This document shows, one piece after another, positions 32,901-52,767 of a DNA stretch of 64,000 nt. The notes under the pieces are model-generated. The model was given only the letters and a program-made list of their open reading frames with translations, had not been told where the DNA came from and ran no database searches. This stretch comes from Microbacterium maritypicum (lineage in GTDB: Bacteria; Actinomycetota; Actinomycetes; Actinomycetales; Microbacteriaceae), in NCBI RefSeq assembly GCF_041529975.1, contig NZ_CP168030.1, positions 3,286,001-3,350,000 of the forward strand. The letters run 5' to 3'. The translations under genes and the position numbers were made by a program. Within the stretch, counting starts at the first letter, position 1; each line of letters starts with the position of its first letter.

Positions 32901-34367
32901 GTGACCGAGCCGACCCCCGCAGACGCACCTGACACGGAGACCTTCACCTCGCGCCGCCACCGCATCACCGCGGGCGGCCGCTCGCTCGACTACACCGCCG
33001 GCGCGGGCACCGTGATCGTCCGCGACGACGAGCACCGCCCACTCGCGAGCGTGTTCTACACCTCGTACATCGCCGACCGCGAGGAGGGCGCCCCGGTGCG
33101 CCCCGTGACGTTCCTGTTCAACGGCGGCCCCGGTTCGGCGAGCCTCTGGCTCAACATCGGTGGCTTCGGACCGAAGCGCACGCCCACGAACACACCCCTC
33201 GCGACGCCGCCCGCCCCCTACGCGAGCGGCGACAACCCGCACACGCTGCTCACCGCCTCCGACCTCGTGTTCATCGACGCGCCCGGCACCGGATACTCAC
33301 GTCTCCTCGGCGATGCGACCCCGGCAGAGCTGTGGGGCGTCGACCAGGACGTCGCCGCGTTCGCAAAGGCGATCACGCGCTGGCTCACGATCACGAACAA
33401 CTGGAATGCGCCGCGCTTCCTGTTCGGCGAGTCGTACGGCACCACGCGCGCTGCGTCGCTCGTGCATCGGCTGCAGAACCAGGGCCTCGACTTCAACGGC
33501 GTCGTGCTTCTGTCGACCGTGCTCAACTGGGGCGAGAGCAACCTCGGCGGACCCCGCGAGTACATCAATCTGCTCCCTTCGTACGCGGCGACCGCCTGGT
33601 ACCACGGCAAGGCCCGCACCGGGCACACCGAGCTCGAGCCACTCCTCCTGGAGGCACGCGAGTTCGCGCAGGGTCCGTTCGCCGAGGCGCTGCTACGCGG
33701 CGATCTGCTGCCCGCCGACCTCGAGGACGCCGTCGCCGAACGGATGAGCGCCCTCATCGGGCTCGACGCCGACTACCTGAAGAAGTACCACTTCCGCATC
33801 GGGATGGAGCAGTACCGCTACGCCCTGCTCGCCGACGAAGGGCGCGTGATCGGCCGCTTCGACACCCGCTTCACCGCCGAGCACCAGTACGTCGTCGGCA
33901 ACGGCTCGCACGACCCGGCCACCGACGACGCGGCCACCGCCGGCGTCAACAGCGCACACCTCTCGACGTACCGCGCGCACCTCGTGGACGACATCGGCTT
34001 CACCAGCGACCTGCACTACCGCCACCTGCACAACATGCCGATCTCCCGCGCGTGGGACTGGAAGCACAAGGCACCGGGCGTGGATGCCCCGCAGCTGGTG
34101 CCCGACGTCTCCATCGACCTGTCGGCCGCCGTGCGCCGCAACCCGAACCTGAAGGTTTTCGTGATGGGCGGGTACTACGACCTGGCCACTCCGTTCTTCG
34201 GACCCGAGGTCGACGTGGCGCACCTGTACCTGGCGCCGAGCCTGCGGGAGAACATCCGGTTCACGTTCTACGAGTCGGGTCACATGACCTTCGTGGACGA
34301 ACGGGCGGTGGAGCGCATGAAGAGCGATCTCGACGACTTCTACCGCGACGCCACGACGCACGGATGA
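32901..34367 (+). CDS. cytoplasmic S10 (serine carboxypeptidase) family protein, first of pair
   Basis: 488 residues with an alpha/beta-hydrolase fold. Oxyanion motif NGGPGSASLWL at residues 74-84; catalytic triad candidates are Ser178 in GESYG, Asp427 in GGYYDLATPF and His461 in ESGHMTFVD, all intact. S10 enzymes remove C-terminal residues from peptides, and some act as acyltransferases. No signal peptide is visible, unlike most S10 proteins, so it should work on imported substrates. GTG start behind GAGGGAG. Its stop overlaps the second S10 gene by four bases, and island motif copy A lies upstream, tying it to the transporter and catabolic genes that follow. Confidence 0.87.
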   Translation: MTEPTPADAPDTETFTSRRHRITAGGRSLDYTAGAGTVIVRDDEHRPLASVFYTSYIADREEGAPVRPVTFLFNGGPGSASLWLNIGGFGPKRTPTNTPLATPPAPYASGDNPHTLLTASDLVFIDAPGTGYSRLLGDATPAELWGVDQDVAAFAKAITRWLTITNNWNAPRFLFGESYGTTRAASLVHRLQNQGLDFNGVVLLSTVLNWGESNLGGPREYINLLPSYAATAWYHGKARTGHTELEPLLLEAREFAQGPFAEALLRGDLLPADLEDAVAERMSALIGLDADYLKKYHFRIGMEQYRYALLADEGRVIGRFDTRFTAEHQYVVGNGSHDPATDDAATAGVNSAHLSTYRAHLVDDIGFTSDLHYRHLHNMPISRAWDWKHKAPGVDAPQLVPDVSIDLSAAVRRNPNLKVFVMGGYYDLATPFFGPEVDVAHLYLAPSLRENIRFTFYESGHMTFVDERAVERMKSDLDDFYRDATTHG

Positions 34368-35755
34368 TCGGGCTCGGGGCCGCGGGTCGGGTCGGCGACC
34401 TGGCCTACACCGCCCGCCTCGAGGAGCTCCCGCTGCGGCGCTCGGACGGCGCAGTCCAGGGGAGGATCTCGGCGTTCAGCTACATCGTCGAGGGCACGGA
34501 TCGCCCCGTGCTGTTCCTCACCAACGGCGGTCCGGGGGTGTCGACGCTCTATCTGCACCTGAGCGGGATCGGGCCGATGCGCGCGCACGTCCCCGTCGAC
34601 CTCGCCGACGACGGGCTCCCTCCCTACGGCGTGGAGGAGAGCCCGTCGACGATCCTCGACGTCGCCGATCTGGTGTTCCTCGACGCACCCGGTACCGGGT
34701 TCGGGGGCTTCGCCGACGATGCCGATGCGTCGGACTTCCGTTCCGTGGAGGGAGACGCCGACGCCATCGCCGCCGCCATCTCGGACTGGGTCGACAGGCA
34801 CGGTCGCTGGAACTCCCGGAAGTTCTTCCTCGGAGAGAGCTACGGCACCCTGCGTGCGGCATTCCTCGCGACCTCATCGCACAGCATAGACACCGCGCCG
34901 CTGGACGGCATGGTGCTGCTGGGGCAGGCCGTCAACATCCAGGAGACGCTGGATCGTCCGGGCAACGTGGTCGGAGCGCTCGCGAACCTGCCGTACAAGG
35001 CAGCGACGGCCTGGTATCACGGCGTCGGCTCCCGCGAACACGAGACGGTCGAGGACGCGATCGCCGCGGCACTGGACTTCGCTCGAGGCGACCTCGCCCT
35101 CGCGATGCTGCAGGGCGACCAGCTGCCGGCCGACGAGCGTGCCGGGATCTCGGAGCGCCTCTCGCGGATGATCGGGATTCCCACGGGCGAGCTCGCCGAC
35201 GATCGACTCTGGGTCAGCAAGCAGGACTTCCGCTCGCGCCTGCTCCCCGGACGCGTGCTCGGAGTGACCGACAGTCGGTACTCCGCACCGGCGGCCGACC
35301 GCCGCTCCGGTGAGCTCGACCACGACCCCTCCGATGTGGCACTCTCCCCGCGGTACGTGGCGGGACTGCAGCAGTTGATGCGACACGTCTTCGGCACCGC
35401 CCCCGCGCAGCCGTATCGCGTGGTCGACCCGGAGGCGGGCCGCGACTGGGAGTGGGACGAGCAGGGCGGTGCGGGGTTCGTCGCCTACGGACGCCCCTCC
35501 CCGTTCCGCACGTACCCGTACCCGGCACGGCTGTCACGCTGGATGAAGCAGACACCGCGCGGACGACTGTTCATCGGCACCGGCGTGTACGACTCGCTGA
35601 CGACCGTCGGCGCGGCCGACCACCTGCTGCGGCAGTGGGGGTTGCCGCGCGAGCGCACCGAGACCCACTGGTACCGCGCCGGGCACATGATGTACAGCGA
35701 CCCCGAGGTCGCGGTGCGCCTGAACGCCGACCTCCGCGCCTTCCTCACCCGCTGA
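34364..35755 (+). CDS. cytoplasmic S10 family protein, second of pair
   Basis: 463 residues, a diverged paralogue of the preceding gene. Oxyanion motif NGGPGVSTLYL, nucleophile Ser159 in GESYGTLRAA, Asp410 in GTGVYDSLTT and His441 in YRAGHMMYSD. Again no signal peptide. The ATG overlaps the upstream TGA (ATGA), so the two are translated together and may form a complex or split substrate range. The stop is 21 bases from the convergent M20 amidohydrolase. Exact substrate unknown; peptidase, esterase and acyltransferase roles are all open. Confidence 0.85.
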   Translation: MIGLGAAGRVGDLAYTARLEELPLRRSDGAVQGRISAFSYIVEGTDRPVLFLTNGGPGVSTLYLHLSGIGPMRAHVPVDLADDGLPPYGVEESPSTILDVADLVFLDAPGTGFGGFADDADASDFRSVEGDADAIAAAISDWVDRHGRWNSRKFFLGESYGTLRAAFLATSSHSIDTAPLDGMVLLGQAVNIQETLDRPGNVVGALANLPYKAATAWYHGVGSREHETVEDAIAAALDFARGDLALAMLQGDQLPADERAGISERLSRMIGIPTGELADDRLWVSKQDFRSRLLPGRVLGVTDSRYSAPAADRRSGELDHDPSDVALSPRYVAGLQQLMRHVFGTAPAQPYRVVDPEAGRDWEWDEQGGAGFVAYGRPSPFRTYPYPARLSRWMKQTPRGRLFIGTGVYDSLTTVGAADHLLRQWGLPRERTETHWYRAGHMMYSDPEVAVRLNADLRAFLTR

Positions 35756-35776
35756 GGAGTCCGACGAGGCTGCAGA

Positions 35777-36961
35777 TCAGGCCGTGAGCGTCTCCATCGC
35801 GAAAGCCGCGAGCGCCACGGCCTGATCGGCGAGGACCGCATCGTCGAACACGACCGTCGGAGAGTGGTTCGGAGACGCCGTCTCGAGGTCGACCTCCGCC
35901 GGCGTCGCCCGCAGGAACAGGAACGCCCCCGGAACCTGTTCGAGCACGAAGGAGAAGTCCTCCGATCCCATCACGGGGTGCGCGGTCTCCCACACGCGTT
36001 CGTCGCCGAACAGGCCCCGCAGCGTGGCTCGCACCCGCTCCACCGCGCGGGCATCGTTCACGGTGGGCGCGCACAGCACGGTCACATCGACCTGGGCCGT
36101 GCAACCGTGGGCGGCCGCGATCTCGCGGACGAGTGCGGGGAGCTCCGTCTGCACGCGCGCACTCGACTCGTGCGACAGCACCCGCACCGAGGCGACGAGC
36201 GTCGCGGTGTCGGCGATGATGTTCCGGGCCGGTCCCCCGGCATGCAGCTGCGTGACGCTGAGGACGACCGGGTCGAACACATCGAAGCGGCGGGTGACGA
36301 ACGTCTGCAGCGCGGTGACGAGTTCGGCGGCCACCGGCACGGGGTCCCGGGTCAGGTGCGGTGCCGAGGCGTGGCCCCCGGCTCCCGTGACGGTGATCTC
36401 GACCTCGATCGCGCCGGCCATGAGCGCGCCGGGACGGGTCGAGAACACGCCGTACTCGCCGGGCACGACATGGATGCCGAAGGCCGCGACCGGCCGGGAC
36501 CCGGTGGTCTCGAGGAGCCCCTCGGCGAGCATCCGCTTCGCGCCGTCGCCGAGCTCCTCGCCGGGCTGGAACATCAGCAGGACATCGCCGTGGAGCTCCT
36601 CGCGACGCCCCGCCAGCAGGTGCGCGGCTCCGACGAGACCGGCGACGTGCAGGTCATGCCCGCAGGCGTGCATCCGCTCCCCCGTCGCCGCGTAGTCGAG
36701 CCCCGTGTCCTCGACGAGCGGAAGCGCGTCCATGTCGGCACGCAGCAGCACGGTCGGTCCGGGATGCGCGCCGCGCACGACCGCGGCGATCGAGCTCAGG
36801 CCCTCACCGAGGACCACCTCGAGTCCGAGGGTCTCCAGCGCGTCGAGCACCCGTCGCTGGGTGCGCGGCAGCTCGAGACCCAGCTCGGGGTCGGCGTGGA
36901 TGGCGCGGCGCAGGGCCACGAGCTCGGGCAGCAGGACCTGAGCGTCGTCGAGCAGGGTCAT
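35777..36961 (-). CDS. M20-family amidohydrolase (HipO/IAA-amino acid hydrolase type), copy 1
   Basis: 394 residues. Metal-binding motifs LRADMDALPLVEDTG and HACGHDLHVAGL (about residues 73-115), FQPGEE (about 139) and the C-terminal PVMGSEDFSFVL identify the M20D group, which cleaves N-acyl amino acids such as hippurate or indoleacetyl amino acids. The dimerisation lid domain (about 185-295) is present. The ATG directly follows the TGA of the transporter ATPase gene, so it is the last gene of the TPP-enzyme/ALDH/transporter operon. A second M20 protein (46421-47602) is clearly related. It should act in the cytosol on the imported conjugate. Confidence 0.9.
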   Translation of the reverse strand: MTLLDDAQVLLPELVALRRAIHADPELGLELPRTQRRVLDALETLGLEVVLGEGLSSIAAVVRGAHPGPTVLLRADMDALPLVEDTGLDYAATGERMHACGHDLHVAGLVGAAHLLAGRREELHGDVLLMFQPGEELGDGAKRMLAEGLLETTGSRPVAAFGIHVVPGEYGVFSTRPGALMAGAIEVEITVTGAGGHASAPHLTRDPVPVAAELVTALQTFVTRRFDVFDPVVLSVTQLHAGGPARNIIADTATLVASVRVLSHESSARVQTELPALVREIAAAHGCTAQVDVTVLCAPTVNDARAVERVRATLRGLFGDERVWETAHPVMGSEDFSFVLEQVPGAFLFLRATPAEVDLETASPNHSPTVVFDDAVLADQAVALAAFAMETLTA

Positions 36962-37765
36962 TCAGGATCCGATCGAGTGGAGGAGGCTGTCGGTGCCGGC
37001 GTTCTGGATGCGCGGGATGGCCGCCACGAGCGCCTGTGTGTAGGGATGCTGCGGGTTTGTGACGATCGCGTCGGCATCGCCGTGCTCGACGATCTCGCCG
37101 CTGCGCATCACGGCCGTGGTGTCGGCGATGTAGCGCACCGCGGCGAGGTTGTGGGTGATGAACAGCACCGAGAGCTCGAGCTCGCGCTGCAGGTCGCGCA
37201 TCAGGTTGAGCACCGCGCCCTGCACCGAGGCGTCGAGGGCGGACGTGATCTCATCCGCGATGATCAGGCGCGGCTTCACCGCGAGGCAGCGGGCGATCGC
37301 GACGCGTTGCCGCATGCCGCCGGACAGGCTCGACGGATGCAACTCCGACACACCGGGCTTCAGCCGCACGAGTTCGAGCAGCTCCTTGACGCCGGCCGCA
37401 CGAGCCTTGGCGTTGCCGGAGCCGTGGGTGGCCAGCGCCTCGTCCAGGGTCTCGCCCACCGACATGCGCGGGTTCAGCGACGAGTACGGGTCCTGGAAGA
37501 TCATCTGCACGTCTCGGGCGTGGGCCCGGCGATCACGGCGTCCGACCGCGAGGTCTTTGCCGTCGAGCAGGATCCGGCCCGACGTCGGCTTCTGGAGCCC
37601 CGCGACCGTGCGTGCGACCGTGGACTTGCCCGATCCGGATTCGCCCACCAGCCCCACCGTCGTGCCGTGCGGCACCGTGAGCGACACGTCGTCCACCGCA
37701 TTCACGGCGTGGGGCCCGCGGCCGAATGTGACCACGAGGTTCTCGATGACGAGATCGGCCATCAT
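36962..37765 (-). CDS. peptide-type ABC transporter ATPase (DppF/OppF-like)
   Basis: 267 residues. Walker A VGESGSGKSTVAR, Q-loop MIFQDPYSSLNPRMSVG, signature LSGGMRQRVAIAR, Walker B PRLIIADEITSALD and the H-loop ITHNLAAV are complete. The C-terminal PQHPYTQALVAAIP is typical of peptide/nickel transporter ATPases. It powers the uptake system together with the ATPase half of the fused protein encoded just upstream; its ATG overlaps that gene's TGA by four bases. The first gene product cleaving the imported compound (M20) follows with no gap. Confidence 0.93.
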   Translation of the reverse strand: MMADLVIENLVVTFGRGPHAVNAVDDVSLTVPHGTTVGLVGESGSGKSTVARTVAGLQKPTSGRILLDGKDLAVGRRDRRAHARDVQMIFQDPYSSLNPRMSVGETLDEALATHGSGNAKARAAGVKELLELVRLKPGVSELHPSSLSGGMRQRVAIARCLAVKPRLIIADEITSALDASVQGAVLNLMRDLQRELELSVLFITHNLAAVRYIADTTAVMRSGEIVEHGDADAIVTNPQHPYTQALVAAIPRIQNAGTDSLLHSIGS

Positions 37766-39687
37766 GCACCCGCCTTCGCGAATTCGTCTTCGTGCACGCC
37801 CACGTCCTGCGGGTGCCAGCACGCCACGCGGCCGGAGCCGTGCGCGACGAGCTGAGGGGTCTCGGTGCGGCAGAGCTCGGTGGCGAACGCACAGCGCGGG
37901 GCGAACGCGCAGCCGACCACCGGCTGCGCGAGGTCCGGCGGCTCGCCGGGGATCGTCGCGAGCGGTGCCGTGCGGTCGGTGTCGAGATCCGGCAGCGACT
38001 CCGCCAGCGCGCGGGTGTACGGATGCGCCAGCCGTTCGGGTTCTGCAAGGTGGCGGACGTCGACGTCTTCGACGATGCGGCCGCCGTACATGACCAGGAT
38101 GCGCTGGCAGAGCTCGGCCAGCACCGCGATGTCGTGCGAGACGACGATCGCCGCTGCCCCGGTCTCCTCGCACTCGCGGCGGAGCAGGGCGAGCACCCGC
38201 TGCTGCACCGTGACGTCGAGCGCCGTGGTGGGCTCGTCGGCGATGATCAGCCGCGGCTTCCCGATCTGCGACATCGCGATGAGCGCACGCTGCCGCATGC
38301 CACCGGAGAACTCGTGCGGGAACTGCTTGGCCCGACGCGCCGGATCGGTGATCGACACGGCAGCCAGAGCGTCGACGGCCGCGGCATCCGCTTCCCGCCG
38401 CGTCGCCTTCTGGTGCACGCGCGGCACCTCGGCGAGCTGCGTGCCCACGCGGAGCGCCGGGTTCAGCGCGGTGAGCGAGTCCTGGAACACGATACCGACC
38501 CTCGTGCCGAGCTTCTTCGCCGCACGCTCGCTCGACAGTCCGGACAGCTCCTCTCCCGCGAAGGTGAGGCGCTGCGCGCTGACGGCGGCCCCGGCCGGAG
38601 CCAGCTGCGCGATCGCCATCATCGTGACGCTCTTGCCGCTGCCGGACTCGCCGACCACGCCGACGATCTCGCCGGGTGCGATGCGGAACGAGACGTCCTG
38701 CACGGGGCGCACCCAGCCGTGCTCACCGGGGAAGGAGACGCTGAGGCCCGCAACGTCCAGCAGCGGTTCCACGTCGTCCCTCCGCTCCTCGACGGCAGTG
38801 GTCGAGGAGACGCGGTCAGGATCGCCGAGCTCGCGGACGCTGAGCGTGCGGGTGCGCCCCCGGCCGCGCATGTGGGAGGCCAGCGCCTCGCCGAACATGC
38901 CGAACATGATTCCGGCGAGCACGACCATCACACCCGGCCCCAAGATCGCGGACGGCTGGCTGTAGACCTGCTCGAAGCCCTCGCTGAGCAGGCGGCCCCA
39001 GTCGTACTCGGGCGGCTGCACGCCGACGCCGAGGAAGCTGAGGCTCGACAGGGCGAGGAGTCCCCCGCCGATCGAGATCGTGACGTTGACGATCACCGGC
39101 TCGGCGATGTTGGGGAGGATGTAGCGGGTGAACTGACGCGTCTTCGACACCCCGAGCAGGCGGGCCGCGGCCAGGTACTCCGAACCCCCGACGCGCGAGG
39201 AGAGGGTCTGTGCGAGGCGGGCGAACGAGGGGGTCATGGTCAGCGCGAGCGCGATCACGGCCGTCGTGGAGCCGGTGCCGAGCAGGATCACTGTGAGCAT
39301 CGCGACCAGCAGCACCGGGAAGGCGAGCCAGGTGTTGATGACCGAGCCGAACATGCGCTGCACGCGCGGACCGGCGACGACCGGCAGCGCACCGAGGATC
39401 AGACCGGCCACGGCACCCAGAGCGGTCGCGGTCAGCGCCATCACGAGCGACAGCCGCGTGGCCACGAGCGTGCGCAGCAGCAGGTCCCGCCCGAGCGCGT
39501 CGGTGCCGAGAGGGTGCTCGGCGCTCGGTGGCTGGAGGAGGTCGGCGGGCGACGGGGTCTCGGCCTGCGTACCCCACAACATCGGGGCGAACACGGCGAG
39601 GAGGGCGAAGATCGCGATGAAGGTCAGCGAGATCAGCGCCATCGGGGACTGCAGCAGCCAGGTGCGCCGCCGGTGCGAGGAGGTCAT
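37762..39687 (-). CDS. fused permease-ATPase of a peptide-type ABC transporter (DppC-DppD fusion)
   Basis: 641 residues. The N-terminal ~280 residues are a DppC-type permease with about six helices and the EAA-like loop YLAAARLLGVSKTRQFTRYI. After a polar linker (about 280-305) a complete DppD-type ATPase follows: Walker A GESGSGKSVT (about 349), signature FSGGMRQRALIA, Walker B RLIIADEPTTALD, and the C-terminal CAFAPRCAFATELC cysteine motif of oligopeptide ATPases. These are usually separate genes. No stop or frameshift lies between the halves. It overlaps both neighbouring genes by four bases. Confidence 0.93.
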   Translation of the reverse strand: MTSSHRRRTWLLQSPMALISLTFIAIFALLAVFAPMLWGTQAETPSPADLLQPPSAEHPLGTDALGRDLLLRTLVATRLSLVMALTATALGAVAGLILGALPVVAGPRVQRMFGSVINTWLAFPVLLVAMLTVILLGTGSTTAVIALALTMTPSFARLAQTLSSRVGGSEYLAAARLLGVSKTRQFTRYILPNIAEPVIVNVTISIGGGLLALSSLSFLGVGVQPPEYDWGRLLSEGFEQVYSQPSAILGPGVMVVLAGIMFGMFGEALASHMRGRGRTRTLSVRELGDPDRVSSTTAVEERRDDVEPLLDVAGLSVSFPGEHGWVRPVQDVSFRIAPGEIVGVVGESGSGKSVTMMAIAQLAPAGAAVSAQRLTFAGEELSGLSSERAAKKLGTRVGIVFQDSLTALNPALRVGTQLAEVPRVHQKATRREADAAAVDALAAVSITDPARRAKQFPHEFSGGMRQRALIAMSQIGKPRLIIADEPTTALDVTVQQRVLALLRRECEETGAAAIVVSHDIAVLAELCQRILVMYGGRIVEDVDVRHLAEPERLAHPYTRALAESLPDLDTDRTAPLATIPGEPPDLAQPVVGCAFAPRCAFATELCRTETPQLVAHGSGRVACWHPQDVGVHEDEFAKAGA

Positions 39688-45496: not shown

Positions 45497-45529
45497 CTGT
45501 TTCCTCTCGTGAGCAGCATTGCGTGATTG

Positions 45530-45655: not shown

Positions 45656-46384
45656 GTGGCCAGCACCCAGGATGACGCGCGCACCTTCCAGCGTGTCGCG
45701 CCCGCACAGTCCGTCGCCGACCGCGTCGTGACCGAGGTCGAAGCGATGATCAAGTCCGAGGGCCTCACCCCCGGCCACCGCATCGGCACACGACAGGACC
45801 TGTGCGAGCAGTTCGGCGTCGCGCCGGCCACACTCGGCGAAGCGCTGCGCGTGCTGCGCGCCCGCGGCTCCGTCGACCTGCGCCCTGGCCCGGGCGGCGG
45901 CATCTTCGTCGCCGACCAGTCGCCGCTCATCCGCCTCGCCCACAGCGTGCTCCGTCTGCGCCAGACCGGCGCTCCGGTCAACGACGTGATCAAGGTGCTC
46001 GATGCGCTCGACGAGGCGGTCATGCATGACGCCGTCCTGAACCGCACCGATGCGGACATCGCCGACCTCGACGCGGTCATGTCCGACCTCGCCGACCACT
46101 GGCACGACCCGATCGAGGGGCTGCACGGCAACTGGCGGCTGCATCGCCGCATCGCCGAGATCTCGCCGAACGCGGTGCTGCGGACGTTCTACCTCAACCT
46201 CGTCGACTACATCGAGGGCGAGACCGCCGGCGCGGCGGATGAGGACGCACTGGCCGTCCCCGGATTCCGCCAGGACACGGACGAGCGCCTGCACATCCAC
46301 GAGGCACTCATCGATGCGATCCGCAGCAGCGACGTCGAGGCCGGGCGCAAGGCCGTGCTGGACCACCGCACGCTCGGCCGCTGA
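45656..46384 (+). CDS. GntR-family (FadR/FCD-type) transcriptional regulator
   Basis: 242 residues. A winged helix at about 20-85 contains the GntR core (GTRQDLCEQFGVAPATLGEALRVLR) and the wing LRPGPGGGIFVAD. An all-helical FCD ligand domain follows, with His residues in LHGNWRLHRRIAEIS and LHIHEALIDAI that fit the usual metal/carboxylate-binding site. FCD regulators respond to small carboxylic acids. Its position between the two catabolic operons, next to island motif copy C, makes it the best candidate to bind all four motif copies. Whether it represses or activates is not known; motif placement suggests repression. Confidence 0.9.
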   Translation: MASTQDDARTFQRVAPAQSVADRVVTEVEAMIKSEGLTPGHRIGTRQDLCEQFGVAPATLGEALRVLRARGSVDLRPGPGGGIFVADQSPLIRLAHSVLRLRQTGAPVNDVIKVLDALDEAVMHDAVLNRTDADIADLDAVMSDLADHWHDPIEGLHGNWRLHRRIAEISPNAVLRTFYLNLVDYIEGETAGAADEDALAVPGFRQDTDERLHIHEALIDAIRSSDVEAGRKAVLDHRTLGR

Positions 46385-46420: not shown

Positions 46421-47602
46421 CTAGCGGGACACGTGCCGGAGAGCGAGCGCGGCCAGCGCCGCGGCCTGATCGCCGAGCACCGCATCGTCGAAGACCGCGT
46501 GCGGTGAATGGTTCATCGGGATCTCGTCCGGGTCGACGTGCAGCGGCGTCGCGCTCAGGAACAGGAAGGTCCCCGGCACTTCGCGGAGCACGAATGAGAA
46601 GTCCTCCGAGGCCATCCAGGGCACGGCGAGCTCTTCGACCCGGTCGTCGCCGAACTCCTCCCGGAGCACCGCCGTCGCCGCCGCGGTCTCCGGGGCCGTG
46701 TTGACGGTCACCGGATAGCCGATGATCACCTCGACATCGGCCGTGCACCCGTGCGCGGCCGCGATGCGCTCGACGAGGGGCGGAAGTTCCGCCTGGGCCT
46801 GTGCGATCGAGGCCTCGGACAACGTGCGCAGCGTCGCGGCGAGGCCGGCCTGCTCGGGGATCACGTTCACGACCTCGCTCGCGAACAGCTTCGTCACCGA
46901 GAGCACCACGGGGTCGAACACGTCGACGCGCCGGGTGACCCAGCTCTGCAGCGCCAGCACGATCTCGGCGACCGCGGGCACCGGGTCGACCGCCTGATGC
47001 GGGCGGGAGCCGTGGCCACCCCGGCCGTGCACGGTGACCCTCAGCACGTTCGCACCGGCCATGATCGTGCCCGGTTTGAGTTGGAACGTGCCGCGCTCCC
47101 CCGGACCGACATGGATGCCGTATGCCGCTTCGACCCTCGCGCCTGACGCCTCGAGCACGCCGTCGCGGATCATCAGCGGCGCACCTCCGCCGGCCTCCTC
47201 GCCCGGCTGGAACATGAAGACGACGGACCCCGCGATGCTCTCCCGCCGTGCCGCGAGCAGCCGGGCGGCACCGACGAGTCCGGCCACATGGAGGTCATGT
47301 CCGCACGCGTGCATGGCGCCGTTCACGGACGCGTACTCGAGCCCGGTCTCCTCGACGATCGCCAGCGCGTCCATGTCGCCCCGCAGCAGCACCGACGGCC
47401 CGTCCGCCGCTCCGCGCAGCACCGCGGTGACCGAGCTCAGGTCACTGCCGGTGGTGATCTCGAGGCCGAGGTCGGCGAGTTCCGCGAGCACGACGGCCTG
47501 CGTCTGCGCAAGCTCGAAACCGACCTCGGGGATGCGGTGCAGGCGGCGTCGCAGATCGACCAGCTCGGGCAGCAGGCGGGCGGCATCGTCGCGCAGCGTC
47601 AC
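46421..47602 (-). CDS. M20-family amidohydrolase (HipO/IAA-amino acid hydrolase type), copy 2
   Basis: 393 residues. Metal sites LRGDMDALAIVEETG, HACGHDLHVAGLVGAARLL, FQPGEEAGGGAP and VPWMASEDFSFVLREVPG, with the lid domain between. Strongly similar in order and wording to the copy at 35777-36961, including the C-terminal NHSP-VFDDAVL-DQA-ALAALA pattern, so the two arose by duplication. It should hydrolyse an N-acyl amino acid or similar amide in the cytosol. The GTG overlaps the TGA of the upstream amidohydrolase (GTGA). Last gene of the oxygenase operon; converges on the GntR gene with a 36-base gap. Confidence 0.9.
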   Translation of the reverse strand: MTLRDDAARLLPELVDLRRRLHRIPEVGFELAQTQAVVLAELADLGLEITTGSDLSSVTAVLRGAADGPSVLLRGDMDALAIVEETGLEYASVNGAMHACGHDLHVAGLVGAARLLAARRESIAGSVVFMFQPGEEAGGGAPLMIRDGVLEASGARVEAAYGIHVGPGERGTFQLKPGTIMAGANVLRVTVHGRGGHGSRPHQAVDPVPAVAEIVLALQSWVTRRVDVFDPVVLSVTKLFASEVVNVIPEQAGLAATLRTLSEASIAQAQAELPPLVERIAAAHGCTADVEVIIGYPVTVNTAPETAAATAVLREEFGDDRVEELAVPWMASEDFSFVLREVPGTFLFLSATPLHVDPDEIPMNHSPHAVFDDAVLGDQAAALAALALRHVSR

Positions 47603-48780
47603 AAGTTCTCCTTCTTCGCGGTGTAGACGGTCCGTCCGTCGATGAGCACCTCCCGCACGGTCGAGGCGACGTCGAGCGGGTCTCCGGTCCACAGAACCAC
47701 ATCCGCGTCGCGGCCGACCTCCAGCGCACCGACGCGGTCGCCGATGCCGGCGATGTCGGCCGCGGCGGAGGTCACGGCGGCGATGGCGGTCTCGCGGGGA
47801 AGGCCGGCACGCACGGCGACGGCAGCCTGCAGAGCGAGGAGCCCGATGGGAACCACCGGATGATCGGTGGTCAGGGCGACGCGCACTCCCGCGGCGGCGA
47901 GGGTCGCGAGGTTCGCAGGATCGGCCTCGCGCACCTCGACCTTGGATCGGCTCGACAGGATGGGGCCGAAGATGACGGGCACATCGCGCTCCGCGAGCAC
48001 GTCGGCGAGCTTGTGGGCCTCGGTTCCGTGGTTGAGCACGAGACGCAGCCCGAACTCCTCGGCGATGCGCAGCGCCGTCGCGATGTCGTCGTGCCGATGC
48101 GCGTGCTGCTCCCAGGAGAGCGCGCCGTCGAGGGCCTCGGTGAGCGCCTGCTTTCCCAGGTCGACCGCGAACGGTGTGCCCTCGGCGCGGGCGCGATCCC
48201 GCCGTTCGGCGTAGTCGCGCGCATCCAGGAGCGCCTGCCGGATGACGAGCGCGATGCCGAGACGGGTCGACGGCAGCTGCTTGCGCTCCCCATAGGCCTG
48301 CTTCGGATTCTCGCCGAGCGCCGACTTCATGCCGAGGGCCGCGCGGATGACCTGCTCGTCGACCGAGCGTCCACCGGCGGTCTTGATCGCCACGCTCTGC
48401 CCGCCGATCGGATTCCCCGATCCCGGTTTCACGACGACCGCCGTGATGCCGCCTGCCAACGCGTCGGCGAACGCCATGTCCTCGATGTTGATCGCGTCGA
48501 TCGCCCGCACGCCGGCGGTCACGGGCGACGACACCTCGCTGCCGTCGAAGCCCGCGGGGCCGTTGGCTTCTTCGTGCACGCCGATGTGGCTGTGCGGGTC
48601 GATGAGTCCGGGCAGGACCCAGCATCCCGTCGCATCGATCACCCGCGCACCGTCCGGCACCGCGATCCCGACACCGACCGCCTCGATGCGGCCGCCCGCC
48701 ACGAGCACCGTGCCGCCGTCGAGCTCCTCGCCGAGGCCGGTGACCACGCGTCCGCCGACGATCGCGACGTCAGCGCTCAT
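47599..48780 (-). CDS. imidazolonepropionase-like metal-dependent amidohydrolase
   Basis: 393 residues. N-terminal beta-sandwich (VAIVGGRVVTG), then the first metal motif PGLIDPHSHIGVH (about residue 57-69), later histidines in WEQHAHRHDD and NHGTEAHKL, and the catalytic Asp in ALTTDHPVVPIG near residue 315. The C-terminal GALEVGRDADVVLWTGDPLD is typical of the amidohydrolase superfamily. Such enzymes hydrolyse cyclic amides, dipeptides (prolidase-like) and toxins with amide bonds. Its neighbours, an M20 hydrolase and a Rieske oxygenase, point to catabolism of an amide-linked compound. It overlaps the HAD-like gene upstream and the M20 gene downstream by four bases each. Confidence 0.87.
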   Translation of the reverse strand: MSADVAIVGGRVVTGLGEELDGGTVLVAGGRIEAVGVGIAVPDGARVIDATGCWVLPGLIDPHSHIGVHEEANGPAGFDGSEVSSPVTAGVRAIDAINIEDMAFADALAGGITAVVVKPGSGNPIGGQSVAIKTAGGRSVDEQVIRAALGMKSALGENPKQAYGERKQLPSTRLGIALVIRQALLDARDYAERRDRARAEGTPFAVDLGKQALTEALDGALSWEQHAHRHDDIATALRIAEEFGLRLVLNHGTEAHKLADVLAERDVPVIFGPILSSRSKVEVREADPANLATLAAAGVRVALTTDHPVVPIGLLALQAAVAVRAGLPRETAIAAVTSAAADIAGIGDRVGALEVGRDADVVLWTGDPLDVASTVREVLIDGRTVYTAKKENL

Positions 48781-49313
48781 CCCTGCTCCTCGCTCGTGTG
48801 CATCGTGTTCCCTCCCGTGCGCCGTTCGACGAGCGCGCGCGTCCGTGTCAGCAGATCATCGAGGTCGAGGCTGAGGATGCCGGCAGCGGGGTCGACCCGC
48901 ACGACGATCCCGTCCTCGCACTCCGGCGGCTCTCCGCTGAGATCCACGAGAGGATCGTCGACCCAGACCCACGGCAGACCATCGGCATAGCGGCGGATGT
49001 GCGCGAGCTTGTCGAACTGCACGGGCAAGAAGGGCCAGGGCTCCTCCGGCAACTCGAGCGGCCCGCGGAACGCCGTGTGCGCGTTGTGTCCCCACTCGGA
49101 TGCCCAGACGATGTCGAAGTGCTCGGCCAGCTCGTGCAGGCGTCGGGCCGCCGAGTCCGGGATGGCGACGTCGCGGACCCACCGGCCCCAGGCGGAGAGG
49201 TGGTGCATGCTCACCGGGACCGAGGGCTCGCCCTCGATCACGAACACGTCGCTGATCCCGAGCACGAGGACCGGGCGGTCTCCGCGCGGCGGTCGCGCCG
49301 TGTACTTCGCCAT
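48777..49313 (-). CDS. HAD-like protein with a degenerate first motif
   Basis: 178 residues. The layout matches small actinobacterial HAD-domain proteins: a first strand (VLVLGISDVFVIEG), then RLHELAEHFDIVWASEWGHN, LPWVWVDDPLV and VRVDPAAGILSLDLDDLL. In active relatives the first strand reads DVDGV; here the two catalytic Asp positions are replaced by Gly-Ile-Ser-Asp, so phosphatase activity is doubtful. It sits inside the Rieske/amidohydrolase operon, one base after the oxygenase stop and overlapping the amidohydrolase start. A structural or binding role is possible. Function unknown. Confidence 0.7.
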   Translation of the reverse strand: MAKYTARPPRGDRPVLVLGISDVFVIEGEPSVPVSMHHLSAWGRWVRDVAIPDSAARRLHELAEHFDIVWASEWGHNAHTAFRGPLELPEEPWPFLPVQFDKLAHIRRYADGLPWVWVDDPLVDLSGEPPECEDGIVVRVDPAAGILSLDLDDLLTRTRALVERRTGGNTMHTSEEQG

Positions 49314-49314: not shown

Positions 49315-50517
49315 TCAGTCGTCCACCGCGTCGGCGAGCAGCGGCGCGTCTGCGGCACCCTCGAAGTAGTTGCCGCCCTCGATGCGCACCAGCCGCTCCG
49401 CCTCATCGAAGCTCACGCCCACCGGGTCGCCGCCGGCTGCGACCGCGCGGTGCTGCTTGGCCATCATCCGCCGGATCATCGCGATGCCCTGATCGGTGGT
49501 CGTGAGGTGATCCTCGGAGTGCAGCGAGATGGCACCCTGCGACTTCTGCGCCTCGTAGTCACCGGGCAGGCGCTGATGCTCGAGGTCGGTGAGCTCCTTC
49601 CACGGCTTGCCCTCGTGCGTGGAGCGGAGCTTCGCGAGGAAGTCGGGATCGGCATCGCGCGCCACGGTGAAGATGCGGAAGTTCGTGTCATCCATCGGCA
49701 CGACCCAGCCGATCATGTTCGTCTGCCCCGAGCTGAGCTTCGGGCTGGCCACGACCCGCAGGTTCGGGAAGATGACCTCGGTGACGCGGCGCAGCTGACG
49801 ACCGTCGCCGAGCTCGCGCATCTGGATGCTGCGCACGCCGAGCGGCGTGTACTCGTAGCTGACCTCGGGGATGAGCGCCATCTCGGGCGTGAACTGGTTG
49901 CCGCTGAAGCGCGCGTGCAGGATCGGCACGTGGAACGGGTCCATCACGTTCTCCCAGTGCTGCAGCCAGTTGAAGTCGAGCTGGGCGGGTCCGCCGCCGC
50001 CCACGCCCTGGTCGTTGACGATCAGCTGCTCGTCGTCGGCGAGCTCCTCAAGGGTGTCGTACCGCGGAAGCACGGGCTTCTTCTCGGGCGGGCCCAGGTA
50101 CGCCCAGATCAGGCCGTACTGCTCCTCGACCGGATACCAGGGCTGGCGCACACGATCGCGGTGCAGGCCCAGTTCGGGCTCGCACGGCTGCTCGAGGCAG
50201 TGCCCCTCGGTGTCGAACACCCACCCGTGGTAGCAGCAGCGGATGCCCTCCTCTTCGACGCCGCCGTAGAACAACGAGGCGCCGCGGTGGATGCAGCGCG
50301 GGTGCAGCAGGCCGGCCTTGCCCTTGCGGGTGCGGAAGAGCACGAGCTCTTCGCCCAGCACCCGCAGCGAGATCGGGCGCGTCGTCGCATCCTCGACCTT
50401 CGCGACCGGGTGCCAGTAGCGGCGAAGCACCTCGCCGTAGGGGGTACCGGGGCCGACCTGGGCGAGCTCGTTGAGCGGCTGCCCGAGGCGTAGGCCGTAT
50501 GCGGTTCCGGTGTCCAT
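49315..50517 (-). CDS. Rieske non-haem iron oxygenase, alpha subunit
   Basis: 400 residues. The Rieske [2Fe-2S] ligands are Cys75-x-His77 and Cys94-x2-His97 (HPRCIHRGASLF and RCCYHGWVF). The mononuclear iron site includes Asp193-x2-His196-x4-His201 in NVMDPFHVPILHARF. The phthalate-4,5-dioxygenase-like branch with no small subunit fits its neighbour, a phthalate-dioxygenase-type reductase. These enzymes hydroxylate aromatic rings or remove O/N-methyl groups with O2 and NADH electrons. The substrate is unknown. Starts 23 bases after the reductase stop. Confidence 0.92.
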   Translation of the reverse strand: MDTGTAYGLRLGQPLNELAQVGPGTPYGEVLRRYWHPVAKVEDATTRPISLRVLGEELVLFRTRKGKAGLLHPRCIHRGASLFYGGVEEEGIRCCYHGWVFDTEGHCLEQPCEPELGLHRDRVRQPWYPVEEQYGLIWAYLGPPEKKPVLPRYDTLEELADDEQLIVNDQGVGGGGPAQLDFNWLQHWENVMDPFHVPILHARFSGNQFTPEMALIPEVSYEYTPLGVRSIQMRELGDGRQLRRVTEVIFPNLRVVASPKLSSGQTNMIGWVVPMDDTNFRIFTVARDADPDFLAKLRSTHEGKPWKELTDLEHQRLPGDYEAQKSQGAISLHSEDHLTTTDQGIAMIRRMMAKQHRAVAAGGDPVGVSFDEAERLVRIEGGNYFEGAADAPLLADAVDD

Positions 50518-50540
50518 GTTCGCTCCGTTCGTGCGGGGGG

Positions 50541-51509
50541 TCAGATGTCGAGGACGAGACGCTCGCCGAGAGAGCGGGAGACGCAGATCATCATCGTCTC
50601 GTTGCTCTCGCGCTCGTCGGGGGTGAGGATCGAGTCCCGGTGTTCGGGGGTGCCGTCGATCACGGTCGTCTCGCAGGTGCCACAGACGCCCTCGAGGCAG
50701 GAACTCGGCACCCCGATCCCGGCGCTCTCGAGCATCTCGAGGATGCTGCAGCCGCGGTCGACCGTGACGACGAGGTCGGACCTGGCCGCCACGACCTCGA
50801 AGGTGTCGGCGCCCTGCGACTCGCCGAACGTCTTCGGCTGGAAGCGCTCGAGATGCAACGCACCGTGCGGCCAGTCGAGGCTGAGCGTTTCGAGGGCATC
50901 CAGCATGCGTTCGGGGCCGCACGCGTACACGGCGGACCCGGCGGAGGGGACACCGATCCACGCGGCGAGGTCGAGTCGCTCGTCGGCGTCGCCACGGACC
51001 AGGAGCGTCTCGCCCCCGGCCAGCTGGGGGTAGCGGAGGAACGCCATCCGTTCCTCCGTCGAGCCGAGATACGCCAGGCGCCACGGGATCCCGCGGCGGA
51101 CGGCCTCGGACAGCATCGGCAGGATCGGCGTGATGCCGATGCCGCCCGCGACGAACACGTACTCCGTTGCGGGGGCGAGCGCGAAGTGGTTGATCGGGGC
51201 GGAGACGGTCACGAGTTCGCCGACCCGGAGACTCTGGTGCACATAGCGGGAGCCGCCGCGACTCGGGCTCTCGGCCAGGATCGCGACGCGCCAGGCAGTG
51301 CGGTCGGCGGGGTCGGAGCACAGCGAGTACTGGCGCTCCACTCCGTTCGCGAAGCGGAGGTCGATGTGCGCGCCGGGCTCCCACGCGGGCAGGGGCGCGC
51401 CCGTCGGGTCGTCGAGTTCGAGGGACAGCACGTCCCGCGCCTCCCACCGCATCGCCCGCACGCGCAGGGCGAGGGACGCTTCCGGGGAATCCACCGCAGA
51501 ATGGGGCAC
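50541..51509 (-). CDS. oxygenase reductase (phthalate dioxygenase reductase type)
   Basis: 322 residues, matching the ~320 of phthalate dioxygenase reductase. FMN domain (RQYSLCSDP, about residue 55), NAD domain (FVAGGIGITPILPML, about 118-132; YACGPERML) and a C-terminal plant-type [2Fe-2S] ferredoxin domain with Cys271, Cys276, Cys279 and Cys309. It passes electrons from NADH to the Rieske protein encoded next. I chose GTG at 51509 (GGAG five bases upstream); a longer open frame reaches 51575 but would run through island motif copy D. Confidence 0.92.
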   Translation of the reverse strand: MPHSAVDSPEASLALRVRAMRWEARDVLSLELDDPTGAPLPAWEPGAHIDLRFANGVERQYSLCSDPADRTAWRVAILAESPSRGGSRYVHQSLRVGELVTVSAPINHFALAPATEYVFVAGGIGITPILPMLSEAVRRGIPWRLAYLGSTEERMAFLRYPQLAGGETLLVRGDADERLDLAAWIGVPSAGSAVYACGPERMLDALETLSLDWPHGALHLERFQPKTFGESQGADTFEVVAARSDLVVTVDRGCSILEMLESAGIGVPSSCLEGVCGTCETTVIDGTPEHRDSILTPDERESNETMMICVSRSLGERLVLDI

Positions 51510-51560
51510 CGTCGCTCCGCTCCTTCCGTCGTTCCGGCCGCCATCGACCGAATTGACCAC

Positions 51561-51577
51561 ATTCGATATATTCAATT
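51561..51577. promoter_or_regulatory. island motif, copy D
   Basis: Reads AATTGAATATATCGAAT on the minus strand, in the region between the reductase/oxygenase operon (minus) and the HisC-like aminotransferase (plus). A TAGTAT -10-like box for the plus-strand gene lies at 51582-51587, five bases away, so a bound protein could control both sides. Confidence 0.65.
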
Positions 51578-51657
51578 GCGATAGTATGGATGATGCCCGG
51601 CACTGTCAAACGGACGGACGGGTGCCGCACGAGCGGATGATGAGAGAGGCGGAACGG

Positions 51658-52767
51658 ATGTCGGAGCTGAGACTGCGGGAGGACCTGAACGCGATCCCCG
51701 GATACACCCCGGGGAAGGCCGCGCCGCAGGCGGAGACCACCGGACCGGTGTTCAAGGTGTCGTCGAACGAGAACCCCTATCCCCCGCTCCCGTCGGTGAC
51801 CGCGGCCATCGCCGACCGGCTCGCGCATATCAACCGCTACCCCGAGACCGCGGCGACCGCCCTCACCGCCGTGCTGTGCGAGCGGTTCGGCGTCGAGCCG
51901 GTGAACGTCGTGCTCGGCAGCGGATCGGTCGAGGTCGTCTCGCAGCTGATGCGCGCGACGGCCGGCGAGGGCGATGAGATCCTGTTCGCCTGGCGGTCGT
52001 TCGAGGCGTATCCGATGCTCGCTCGCGCGGCCGGAGCCGTGCCCGTCATGGTTCCCCTCACGGACGACCACCGGCACGACCTCGACGCGATGCGGGCGGC
52101 CATCACCGATCGCACGCGCCTGATCCTGGTGTGCAACCCCAACAACCCGACCGGAACGACGATCGGCGACGCCGAGCTCGACCGGTTCCTCGCCCAGGTC
52201 CCGCCGCACATCGTCGTCGTGATCGACGAGGCGTACGTGCAGTTCAACGACCGCGACGACTCCCCCGTCGGCATCGAGTACTTCCGCCGCTACCCGAACG
52301 TCGCCGTCGCGCACACCTTCTCGAAGGCCTACGGCCTGGCCGGCATGCGCATCGGCTACGCGATCGCCCCCGAGCAGTTGGGCGTCGCGCTGCGCAAGGT
52401 CGCCATCCCGTTCGGCGTGACCGACCTGGCGCAGACGGCCGCGATCGCCTCCCTCGCCGCCGAGGACGAGCTCGAGGCCAGGGTCGCCGAGCTCGTCGTC
52501 GAGCGGGAGCGCGTCGTCGCCGCCTTCACCACCGCCGGCCTCGCGCTTCCCGAGAGCAAGGGCAACTTCGTCTGGCTTCCCCTCTGTGATGCCACGGCCG
52601 CTGCCGCCGAGCTGTTGGAACGCCACGGCCTGCTCGTGCGGCCGTTCCCGGGCGAAGGGCTCCGGGCGACCGTCGCCGAGCCCGAGGCCAACGAACGGCT
52701 CATCGCGCTGGCACCCGAGATCGCCGCACTCGTCGCCCCCGCGGAGGCCGTGCTCGCCTCGCGGTGA
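51658..52767 (+). CDS. HisC-like / aromatic amino acid aminotransferase
   Basis: A 369-residue fold-type I PLP enzyme. NPNNPTGTTIGD is the substrate/PLP loop, VIDEAYVQF the aspartate region, and Lys223 in THTFSKAYGLAGMRIGY forms the Schiff base. It belongs to the histidinol-phosphate aminotransferase family, which includes actinobacterial aromatic aminotransferases (Pat). No other his genes are nearby, and it shares a divergent promoter with the oxygenase operon and its motif. That argues for a catabolic role, turning an amino acid into a 2-oxo acid for the ThDP enzyme. GAGAGG precedes the ATG. Confidence 0.85.
   Translation: MSELRLREDLNAIPGYTPGKAAPQAETTGPVFKVSSNENPYPPLPSVTAAIADRLAHINRYPETAATALTAVLCERFGVEPVNVVLGSGSVEVVSQLMRATAGEGDEILFAWRSFEAYPMLARAAGAVPVMVPLTDDHRHDLDAMRAAITDRTRLILVCNPNNPTGTTIGDAELDRFLAQVPPHIVVVIDEAYVQFNDRDDSPVGIEYFRRYPNVAVAHTFSKAYGLAGMRIGYAIAPEQLGVALRKVAIPFGVTDLAQTAAIASLAAEDELEARVAELVVERERVVAAFTTAGLALPESKGNFVWLPLCDATAAAAELLERHGLLVRPFPGEGLRATVAEPEANERLIALAPEIAALVAPAEAVLASR

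Follow-up and report, generated by a model that had tools for sequence, protein, structure and literature searches.

What compound is handled by the 16 genes packed at positions 32901 to 52767 of this 64-kb Microbacterium window (by which we mean the whole stretch of DNA analyzed)? The first-pass annotation had proposed a possible undescribed line that imports an amide-linked, perhaps aromatic compound, cleaves its amide bond, and then transaminates, decarboxylates, oxidizes, and hydroxylates it. All of the genes that it named were found within the locus by Pfam and NCBIfam profile matches (Table 1), and the packing is as tight as claimed: spacing splits the set into six units, with intra-unit gaps of −4 to 23 bp. 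Two cluster genes that it had left unnamed encode a GntR/FCD regulator and a small HAD-like protein. The set looks like an import and breakdown line for tyrosine-containing peptides or amides, and we suggest, with a probability of roughly 0.6, that these co-regulated genes serve to break down tyrosine bound in peptides or to acyl groups, with Rieske-type 3-hydroxylation of 4-hydroxyphenylacetate as one of the steps. The idea of a single line on an aromatic compound is thus retained, on the strength of a shared motif and a core kept in relatives, and the likely compound is changed to tyrosine.

Table 1. Genes and promoter elements of the cluster (window coordinates)
Feature	Position	Strand	Evidence or remark
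Motif copy 1, upstream of S10 pair	32863..32872	-	AATTGAATRT
S10a, S10-type serine carboxypeptidase family	32901..34367	+	PF00450, E 3.4e-8
S10b, second S10 family protein, 4-bp overlap with S10a	34364..35755	+	PF00450, E 1.9e-8
M20a, M20 amidohydrolase, TIGR01891 family	35777..36961	-	TIGR01891, 281 bits (cutoff 154)
OppF-type ATPase	36962..37765	-	PF00005
OppC permease and OppD ATPase, fused	37762..39687	-	PF00528 + PF00005 + PF08352, one ORF
OppB permease	39684..40706	-	PF00528
Substrate-binding protein, SBP_bac_5 family	40711..42300	-	PF00496, E 1.5e-48
Motif copy 2, upstream of SBP operon	42327..42336	+	AATTGAATRT
Aldehyde dehydrogenase, proposed 4-hydroxyphenylacetaldehyde dehydrogenase	42388..43824	-	PF00171
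ThDP enzyme, proposed arylpyruvate decarboxylase	43829..45496	-	NF006122, 661 bits (cutoff 571)
Operator-like inverted repeat TGAATGTA-N5-TACAGTCA with motif copy 3, between GntR and ThDP genes	45528..45551	.	
GntR/FCD regulator, proposed regulator of cluster	45656..46384	+	PF07729 + PF00392
M20b, M20 amidohydrolase, ILR1/YxeP-like	46421..47602	-	TIGR01891, 276 bits (cutoff 154)
Amidohydrolase, 3ooq-like	47599..48780	-	PF07969/PF01979; 3ooq, 339 bits
Small HAD-like protein, proposed Rieske accessory protein	48777..49313	-	PF18143, E 4e-4, below cutoff
Rieske non-heme iron oxygenase alpha, phthalate 4,5-dioxygenase type	49315..50517	-	PF00355; proposed 4-hydroxyphenylacetate 3-hydroxylase
Rieske-system ferredoxin reductase	50541..51575	-	PF00111, C-terminal Fer2
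Motif copy 4, between reductase and aminotransferase	51568..51577	-	AATTGAATRT
Aminotransferase, HisC2/Pat type, proposed tyrosine/aromatic aminotransferase	51658..52767	+	NF002878, 490 bits (cutoff 374)

In the proposed line, an Opp-type importer would take up peptide- or acyl-bound tyrosine, and the S10, M20, and amidohydrolase enzymes would release the free amino acid. The aminotransferase would convert tyrosine to 4-hydroxyphenylpyruvate, the ThDP enzyme would decarboxylate this to 4-hydroxyphenylacetaldehyde, and the aldehyde dehydrogenase would yield 4-hydroxyphenylacetate, whose C3 the two-component Rieske oxygenase would hydroxylate to give 3,4-dihydroxyphenylacetate (homoprotocatechuate). 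HpaD-E-G-H-I, encoded elsewhere in the genome, would complete the breakdown. We infer every substrate and every reaction in this line from what is directly seen, namely the gene content, the motif, the kept clustering, the linkage to hpa genes in relatives, and the replacement of the Rieske set in Leucobacter with HpaB and a flavin reductase.

The family assignments constrain the individual enzymes to different degrees. Among the 25 families listed, the ThDP enzyme passes the cutoff of NF006122 only, a model named "hypothetical protein"; it belongs to an acetolactate-synthase-like family and lies outside the characterized aryl-2-oxo-acid decarboxylase families among those listed, and its function as an arylpyruvate decarboxylase is proposed from context. 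The NCBIfam matches listed for the aldehyde dehydrogenase, including the phenylacetaldehyde dehydrogenase StyD, are all below cutoff. The aminotransferase passes both NF002878, by name a histidinol-phosphate transaminase model, and TIGR01141 (hisC, 285 versus 277 bits); we take the HisC2/Pat enzymes of NF002878 to be linked to aromatic substrates. Both M20 proteins pass TIGR01891, a match that does not fix the substrate.

The shared promoter motif noted at first pass is real: the window contains four copies of AATTGAATRT where 0.01 would be expected, one for each of the four promoter regions, and four of the six copies in the whole 3.9-Mb genome are at the cluster. The likely switch of the cluster is a GntR/FCD repressor binding this motif, a predicted pairing of regulator and site. 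Copy 4 overlaps the TTG start of the reductase at 51575, and a −35/−10-like pair (51609–51604 and 51586–51581) lies just upstream of it; this start is therefore probably too early, and the better candidate is the GTG at 51494.

The Rieske frame sits within a 1,103-aa ORF and became clear once its start was placed (PF00355, E 1.8e-17, above cutoff). The CxH...CxxH ligands C75, H77, C94, and H97 are invariant in the 22 sequences aligned, as are D193, H196, H201, and D342 (D-x2-H-x4-H and a C-terminal Asp), which by analogy we take to be the mononuclear iron site. In the partner reductase, PF00111 covers residues 266 to 334, the C-terminal 2Fe-2S domain. The HAD-like protein has Gly/Ser at both catalytic Asp positions and so lacks the DxD of an active HAD phosphatase; among 93 homologues, both Asp are missing in 77, both are present in 13, and one is present in 3. 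Its role as a Rieske accessory protein is proposed.

Independent assortment of the parts in relatives, set beforehand as the refuting observation, was not seen. The core of aminotransferase, reductase, Rieske, HAD, GntR, ThDP, aldehyde dehydrogenase, and importer genes stays clustered across six actinobacterial genera and, in a different arrangement, in a further two, the importer and peptidase genes being more fluid than the rest. A Rieske gene is present at 17 of 22 ThDP loci, each time with the reductase, HAD-like, and GntR genes, and 16 of these 17 also carry the aminotransferase and aldehyde dehydrogenase, the exception being a 4.9-kb fragment. Identities of the Rieske, aminotransferase, and aldehyde dehydrogenase proteins to those of the window follow that of the ThDP enzyme (Spearman 0.93 to 0.95 over 14 loci, uncorrected for kinship). 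At L019 and L028, the aminotransferase (43 to 44% identity) and GntR protein (47%) may be paralogues. The Rieske gene is rare, found in 11 of 295 Microbacterium genomes and in 1 of 394 in the class. A shorter version of the cluster is carried on Aminobacter plasmids, with roughly 1 kb between the Rieske (57 to 58% identity) and ThDP (50%) genes in each of the six records found and the order aminotransferase-ThDP-reductase-Rieske in the two viewed. On plasmid pMET1, an SBP_bac_5 importer, an aldehyde dehydrogenase, an FCD regulator, and annotated hpaF-E-D-FAH-H-I genes lie within about 30 kb; the aminotransferase there matches a different family model, NF006719 (aromatic amino acid transaminase, 515 versus 377 bits). 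A PobA-like flavin monooxygenase gene adjoins the aminotransferase gene in Aminobacter, which we count against the tyrosine/4-hydroxyphenylacetate reading.

The product of the line is suggested by its neighbors. Among 10 Rieske-carrying actinobacterial genomes outside Microbacterium, 7 have one or more hpa meta-cleavage genes within 20 kb of the cluster, and HpaD itself is 6 to 16 kb away in five of those seven. Against the tyrosine reading, the hpa genes lie away from the cluster in those Microbacterium genomes that were compared: 2.2 Mb on the contig in the window's own genome, 1.3 Mb in G239, about 100 kb in L016, L023, and L024, and 89 kb in G465. The own hpaI-H-D-E-G set (L066) encodes HpaD (427 bits, cutoff 321), HpaE (656, cutoff 638), and an HpaG-like NF009399 protein (815, cutoff 444) above cutoff, with HpaH (345, cutoff 351.5), HpaI (306, cutoff 369), and the HpaG domain models below. 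It has no AATTGAATRT even with one mismatch allowed, a result that bears on co-regulation through that motif only. HpaD is not specific to Rieske carriers; it was found in 245 of the 295 Microbacterium genomes, compared with Rieske in 11 and HpaB in 12, and therefore another hydroxylase must be able to feed the hpa route in the genus. A phenol-2-monooxygenase-like gene adjoins the own hpa genes. Of 20 genomes searched for HPPD, 12, the own genome among them, had no match, so no homogentisate route from tyrosine is evident in these 12.

The hydroxylation step is addressed by Leucobacter, a single case, whose cluster is without the Rieske, reductase, and HAD genes; on the same contig, its M20a and M20b genes flank those for HpaB (TIGR02309, 521 bits, cutoff 480) and a flavin reductase that passes no equivalog cutoff. 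No Rieske match was found in that genome at E 1e-20. As a further point against the reading, HpaB-family genes are also present elsewhere in 7 of 17 Rieske genomes; the own genome has no PF03241 (HpaB family) match, and its cluster hydroxylase is of the Rieske type. Because hpa genes adjoin the cluster in relatives and HpaB with a flavin reductase replaces the Rieske set in one of them, bound tyrosine is favored over the auxin conjugates and ochratoxin-like toxins considered at first pass.

The same line might instead serve an analogue of phenylalanine or tyrosine that is methylated or para-substituted (halo-, amino-, or O-methyl-), whether of plant, microbial, or synthetic origin; the Rieske enzyme would then 3,4-dioxygenate or demethylate the arylacetate with loss of the substituent. 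Homoprotocatechuate would still be the product and the hpa linkage would fit; an unusual substrate would suit the rare, patchy spread of the Rieske gene, and Sca, the nearest relative with a tested activity, acts on an ether-linked ring. The two-component Rieske-type 4-chlorophenylacetate 3,4-dioxygenase of Pseudomonas CBS3 reportedly yields 3,4-dihydroxyphenylacetate, although our literature search for this precedent found nothing. The HpaB family, however, requires a phenol substrate, and the Leucobacter cluster therefore points to plain 4-hydroxyphenylacetate, which leaves an analogue unlikely. Phenylalanine conjugates, with 3,4-dioxygenation of phenylacetate and rearomatization to homoprotocatechuate, are quite improbable. 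HisC2/Pat-type aminotransferases do act on phenylalanine, and Rieske dioxygenases normally attack unsubstituted carbons, but no dihydrodiol-type dehydrogenase is among the Pfam matches of the 16 genes, and HpaB could not perform that dioxygenation in Leucobacter; the short-chain dehydrogenase gene outside the cluster (55511–56176) is unmatched in relatives' stretches, many of them too short to reach it. We also consider it very unlikely that this is a general peptide-scavenging locus in which the Rieske enzyme acts, ahead of cleavage, on some other residue still bound in the peptide; the S10, M20, and amidohydrolase genes vary between relatives around a constant Rieske core, but L012 and L013, which are without those peptidases, retain the aminotransferase, ThDP, and aldehyde dehydrogenase genes and an hpa-type neighbor, and the Rieske enzyme therefore belongs with the amino-acid-degrading part. 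Oxidation of indole-3-acetate from indole-3-acetyl amino acids or tryptophan conjugates is hardly credible. In its favor, the best solved relative of M20b is the plant IAA-amino acid hydrolase homolog 1xmb, and a kynureninase gene adjoins the aminotransferase gene in L012; but TIGR01891 M20 enzymes are broad, nothing resembling the kynureninase occurs among the unassigned ORFs at the other 15 gene-called loci, and the recurring extra neighbors are hpa ring-cleavage genes.

For the tyrosine line, "undescribed" is too strong a word, because the chemistry is old: the Gram-positive route from tyrosine through 4-hydroxyphenylacetate to homoprotocatechuate has been known biochemically since the 1970s (Blakley 1977, as cited in excerpts of PMC3534580 and PMC2991359). 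It shares with our proposal 4-hydroxyphenylpyruvate, 4-hydroxyphenylacetate, homoprotocatechuate, and meta cleavage by HpaD. The gene set and the Rieske step appear new. According to an excerpt of PMC2991359, A. arilaitensis grows on tyrosine, and genes for a 4-hydroxyphenylpyruvate oxidase and a 4-hydroxyphenylacetate 3-monooxygenase "were not located"; where those authors sought an oxidase, the cluster would use a ThDP enzyme and an aldehyde dehydrogenase, and it differs further in its Rieske-type hydroxylase and in having import and deconjugation genes inside the unit. If correct, our reading would provide candidate genes for both steps described there as unlocated in a tyrosine-using Arthrobacter (4-hydroxyphenylpyruvate to 4-hydroxyphenylacetate, and 3-hydroxylation) and make a half-century-old pathway genetically testable. 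It would also exemplify one enzyme fold (Rieske) replacing an unrelated one (flavin enzyme) within the same gene cluster, and offer a Rieske route from para-phenols to catechols of possible use in biocatalysis.

HpaBC (EC 1.14.14.9 and 1.5.1.36), the usual catalyst of the reaction predicted here, from genomic context, for the Rieske enzyme, is flavin-dependent and belongs to another family. Tentatively, and at somewhat less than even odds, we propose both that the Rieske enzyme has displaced HpaBC as the 4-hydroxyphenylacetate 3-hydroxylase of a mobile pathway for tyrosine conjugates (in Actinobacteria and, in shorter form, in Aminobacter) and that in Actinobacteria it needs an obligatory, catalytically dead HAD-fold partner, a new kind of Rieske accessory subunit. 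The window enzyme resembles the phthalate 4,5-dioxygenase-type oxygenases in its oxygenase subunit and its reductase with a C-terminal 2Fe-2S domain, and it conserves their Rieske ligands, His-His-Asp triad, and bridging Asp. Sca of S. baderi SC-1 (about 52% identity; gene matched by strain and length), the one relative found whose activity has been tested, is a 3-phenoxybenzoate dioxygenase; its substrate differs from that proposed here, which counts against our reading, and PDB 7fhr is a distant relative (159 bits over residues 16 to 283). Unlike the known phthalate 4,5-dioxygenase-type systems, the Rieske enzyme in the actinobacterial loci is accompanied by the HAD-like protein.

All the genes that the first-pass annotation had described as packed together were located among 16 genes at 32901-52767 of the window, which spans 3286001-3350000 of a 3.9-Mb, one-contig genome (see the table). 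By their spacing, they form six units: S10a-S10b, SBP-OppB-OppCD-OppF-M20a, ThDP-ALDH, GntR, reductase-Rieske-HAD-amidohydrolase-M20b, and aminotransferase. The cluster proteins are 98-100% identical to those of Microbacterium sp. MYb45, the nearest named record found. The claim of a shared promoter motif was also borne out: AATTGAATRT occurs four times in the 64 kb, against 0.01 copies expected, in the promoter regions of S10, SBP, GntR-ThDP, and reductase-aminotransferase. Two of these four regions serve divergent units, so four sites suffice for all six. The genome holds six copies. The GntR-ThDP copy is part of the inverted repeat TGAATGTA-N5-TACAGTCA. Judged by eye, a -35-like and a -10-like box flank this copy, and similar sequences are found upstream of the ThDP gene in several relatives. 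Elsewhere in Microbacterium, six loci (L007-L009, L016, L023, and L024) carry the exact motif at two or all of the three in-stretch promoters; it is missing from a seventh, that of M. album (L010). Outside Microbacterium, one copy each was found in loci L018, L021, and L027, and none in the remaining ThDP loci. We infer that the GntR protein binds this motif.

Features of the cluster, of its surroundings, and of compared loci, with their coordinates
Feature	Sequence	Coordinates	Remark
Two S10 proteins; M20a; M20b; amidohydrolase	window	within 32901-52767	
Importer: OppF, fused OppC-OppD, OppB, SBP_bac_5 protein	window	within 32901-52767	
OppC permease joined to OppD ATPase	window	37762-39687	single reading frame
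ALDH; ThDP enzyme; aminotransferase; GntR/FCD regulator	window	within 32901-52767	
Rieske oxygenase; reductase; HAD-like protein	window	within 32901-52767	
HAD-like protein	window	48777-49313	homologues P0121-P0213
SIS-domain (GKRP-like), BadF-type ATPase, and RpiR regulator genes	window	56262-59075	like an amino-sugar (MurNAc/GlcNAc-type) recycling set
Remaining genome copies of AATTGAATRT	L093; L094	5616; 5217-5226	near an Lsr2-like gene / among glycoside-hydrolase-like genes (by eye)
Kynureninase gene	L012 (Streptomyces)	3776-5143	adjoins the aminotransferase gene
Flavin reductase	L095 (Leucobacter)	5243-5785	between M20a and M20b; Flavin_Reduct family, no equivalog cut-off passed
HpaB	L095 (Leucobacter)	5842-7296	between M20a and M20b; equivalog cut-off passed, 521 vs 480 bits
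Two Rieske-reductase pair copies flanking IS1071	L102; L103 (Rhodococcus pyridinivorans Y6)	13965-22514; 13965-16549	

Named genomes were scanned with the ThDP protein, which gave 22 loci; L025 and L026 among them are pieces of a single assembly. A Rieske gene, at 72-100% identity, occurs in 17 of the 22, and all 17 also carry the reductase, the HAD-like gene, and a GntR gene. The aminotransferase and ALDH genes accompany it in 16, the exception being the 4.9-kb fragment L026. M20a is present in 13 of the 17 Rieske loci and the amidohydrolase in 10; OppB is present in 14. In two others (L019 and L028), OppF, where the stretch ends, is all that is seen of the importer, and the one remaining locus is the fragment. 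The full core with the importer was found in six genera (Microbacterium, Leifsonia, Streptomyces, Arthrobacter, Galactobacter, and Actinophytocola). In Sphaerimonospora and Microtetraspora, the core is rearranged, and the aminotransferase (43-44% identity) and GntR protein (47%) may be paralogues. The identities to the window of the ThDP enzyme, Rieske oxygenase, aminotransferase, and ALDH fall together, with Spearman coefficients of 0.93-0.95 over 14 loci, uncorrected for relatedness; on the same uncorrected basis, the values are lower for the reductase (0.89), HAD-like protein (0.88), and GntR protein (0.82) and lowest for OppB (0.68) and SBP (0.66). The Rieske gene is rare, being present in 11 of 295 Microbacterium genomes and in 2 of 199 genomes of the family (>70% identity), and a class-wide search for independent Rieske loci at E 1e-120 returned 1 of 394 genomes, namely the source genome itself.

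The ThDP loci lacking the Rieske gene are L018, L021, L022, L025 (the fragment), and L027. The L021 locus, from an actinobacterial bin, carries importer, aminotransferase, S10, and ThDP genes, lacks a Rieske gene, and has no ALDH gene within the stretch; its sole match to the HpaD model is weak (23 bits), and it is possibly a shorter line ending at an aldehyde or an acid. Three of the loci (L007, L009, and L014) come from isolates MYb45, MYb66, and MYb23, a prefix given to a C. elegans (nematode) microbiome collection.

Homoprotocatechuate meta-cleavage genes are among the extra neighbors of the cluster in relatives. In L019, an HpaG-like NF009399 protein and HpaH score above their cut-offs, and HpaE is a truncated 276-residue piece (348 bits against a cut-off of 638). 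HpaD was above its cut-off in 19 of the 21 genome handles searched, of which G182 and G202 probably represent a single genome, their coordinates being the same; G212 and G213 have neither HpaD nor the Rieske gene. At least one hpa-type gene lies within 20 kb of the cluster in 7 of the 10 non-Microbacterium actinobacterial Rieske genomes. In five of these, HpaD is on the contig of the cluster, at 15.5 kb in Leifsonia, 14 kb in S. fuscichromogenes, 6 kb in Actinophytocola, 6.7 kb in Sphaerimonospora, and 8.4 kb in Microtetraspora. The linked gene in Streptomyces sp. S3 encodes the NF009399 protein alone, with HpaD on a separate contig, and that in a Streptosporangiaceae bin is an ORF fragment clustering with NF009399-type proteins. 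In the other three genomes (two Arthrobacter and one Galactobacter bin), HpaD is on a different contig. Where both were compared on one contig in Microbacterium, the distance between the cluster and hpa is 2.2 Mb in the source genome, about 100 kb in L016, L023, and L024, 89 kb in G465, and 1.3 Mb in G239. The neighborhoods give little support to the auxin and ochratoxin readings. A kynureninase gene was seen in one Streptomyces cluster; no kynureninase-like unassigned ORF was found in the other 15 gene-called loci.

The source genome has an hpaI-H-D-E-G set, in which HpaH and HpaI are under their cut-offs, together with an IclR-like gene (by eye) and a phenol-2-monooxygenase-like gene. This set was tested for AATTGAATRT, and the motif is not there. 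No HpaB-family match was found in the source genome, nor was an HPPD match, which is missing from 12 of the 20 genomes searched, the source genome included. Across Microbacterium, HpaD is present in 245 of 295 genomes but HpaB in only 12 and the Rieske gene in only 11, the latter two never together; therefore, another hydroxylase must serve hpa in most members of the genus. The absence of HpaB was accordingly dropped as proof of the Rieske role, since 283 of the 295 genomes gave no HpaB match at E 1e-20, and so was co-occurrence with HpaD within the genus, given these frequencies. An HpaB-family gene is found elsewhere in 7 of the 17 Rieske genomes and in none of the other 10.

The cluster of Leucobacter chromiireducens LYC-2 includes genes for S10, M20, GntR-like, and amidohydrolase proteins, the importer, the aminotransferase, the ThDP enzyme, and ALDH, and no Rieske match was found in its genome at E 1e-20. 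A flavin reductase gene and an HpaB gene are on the same contig as the rest of the cluster. HpaB puts a hydroxyl group adjacent to the phenol hydroxyl; the simplest reading of this single case is thus that the HpaB set and the Rieske set do the same job on 4-hydroxyphenylacetate (4-HPA).

In a second phylum, six Aminobacter plasmids carry a Rieske gene (57-58% identical) with a ThDP homologue (50%) about 1 kb away; the plasmid ThDP search returned these six, which are also among the 12 Rieske plasmid records. The order aminotransferase-ThDP-reductase-Rieske was seen in the two plasmids viewed, and pMET1 has annotated hpaF-E-D-FAH-H-I, an SBP_bac_5 importer, ALDH, and an FCD regulator within about 30 kb. 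The aminotransferase belongs to a different family (NF006719), and no HAD-like gene was detected in the Aminobacter cluster. As PobA-like flavin monooxygenase, LigB-type dioxygenase, and RraA/aldolase genes are also present, a second hydroxylase may serve this cluster.

The Rieske domain search matched the genome, and the gene is real though outside the PF00848 model (ring-hydroxylating alpha C-terminal), which has no match anywhere in the genome. The ligands that a functional Rieske oxygenase should have do not vary across 22 sequences. In each of the 17 actinobacterial loci, the HAD-like gene is directly 3' of the Rieske gene; the fold assignment of its product comes from a below-cut-off Pfam match. 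Both catalytic Asp residues of the DxD motif are gone in 77 of 93 homologues and retained in 13, which are among the more distant ones; despite this loss, much of the remaining sequence is strongly conserved. For 25 of the 93 listed homologues, the longest contig has the same length as one among the 120 Rieske matches listed, a hint from lengths only. Our guess is that the HAD-like protein is a non-catalytic accessory.

The nearest tested relative found for the Rieske oxygenase is Sca from Sphingobium baderi SC-1 (52% identical), whose substrate is 3-phenoxybenzoate; the strain and the length of 1,230 bp served to pair it with the plasmid gene. The SC-1 Rieske gene adjoins IS6100 and its product is near-identical to that of Rhodococcus pyridinivorans Y6, where IS1071 is the neighbor, which suggests recent movement between phyla. 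The route from tyrosine through 4-HPA to homoprotocatechuate is on record in Gram-positives, according to passages in PMC3534580 and PMC2991359 (citing Sparnins & Chapman 1976 and Blakley 1977), and a passage in PMC2991359 describes the genes for 4-hydroxyphenylpyruvate oxidase and 4-HPA 3-monooxygenase as "not located". In passages of a 2024 review (PMC10816480), 4-HPA 3-hydroxylase is defined as two-component and flavin-dependent, with no mention of "Rieske", and no Rieske enzyme for 4-HPA hydroxylation was found in searches of open-access papers. From genomic context, the Rieske enzyme is a putative 4-HPA hydroxylase. The import, deconjugation, and oxidation pathway first suggested for an amide-linked compound was right in outline and is now more specific, with tyrosine and homoprotocatechuate as its proposed compounds; it is not undescribed as chemistry, the route of the cluster being old, and it is the choice of a Rieske enzyme and the gene set that are apparently new.
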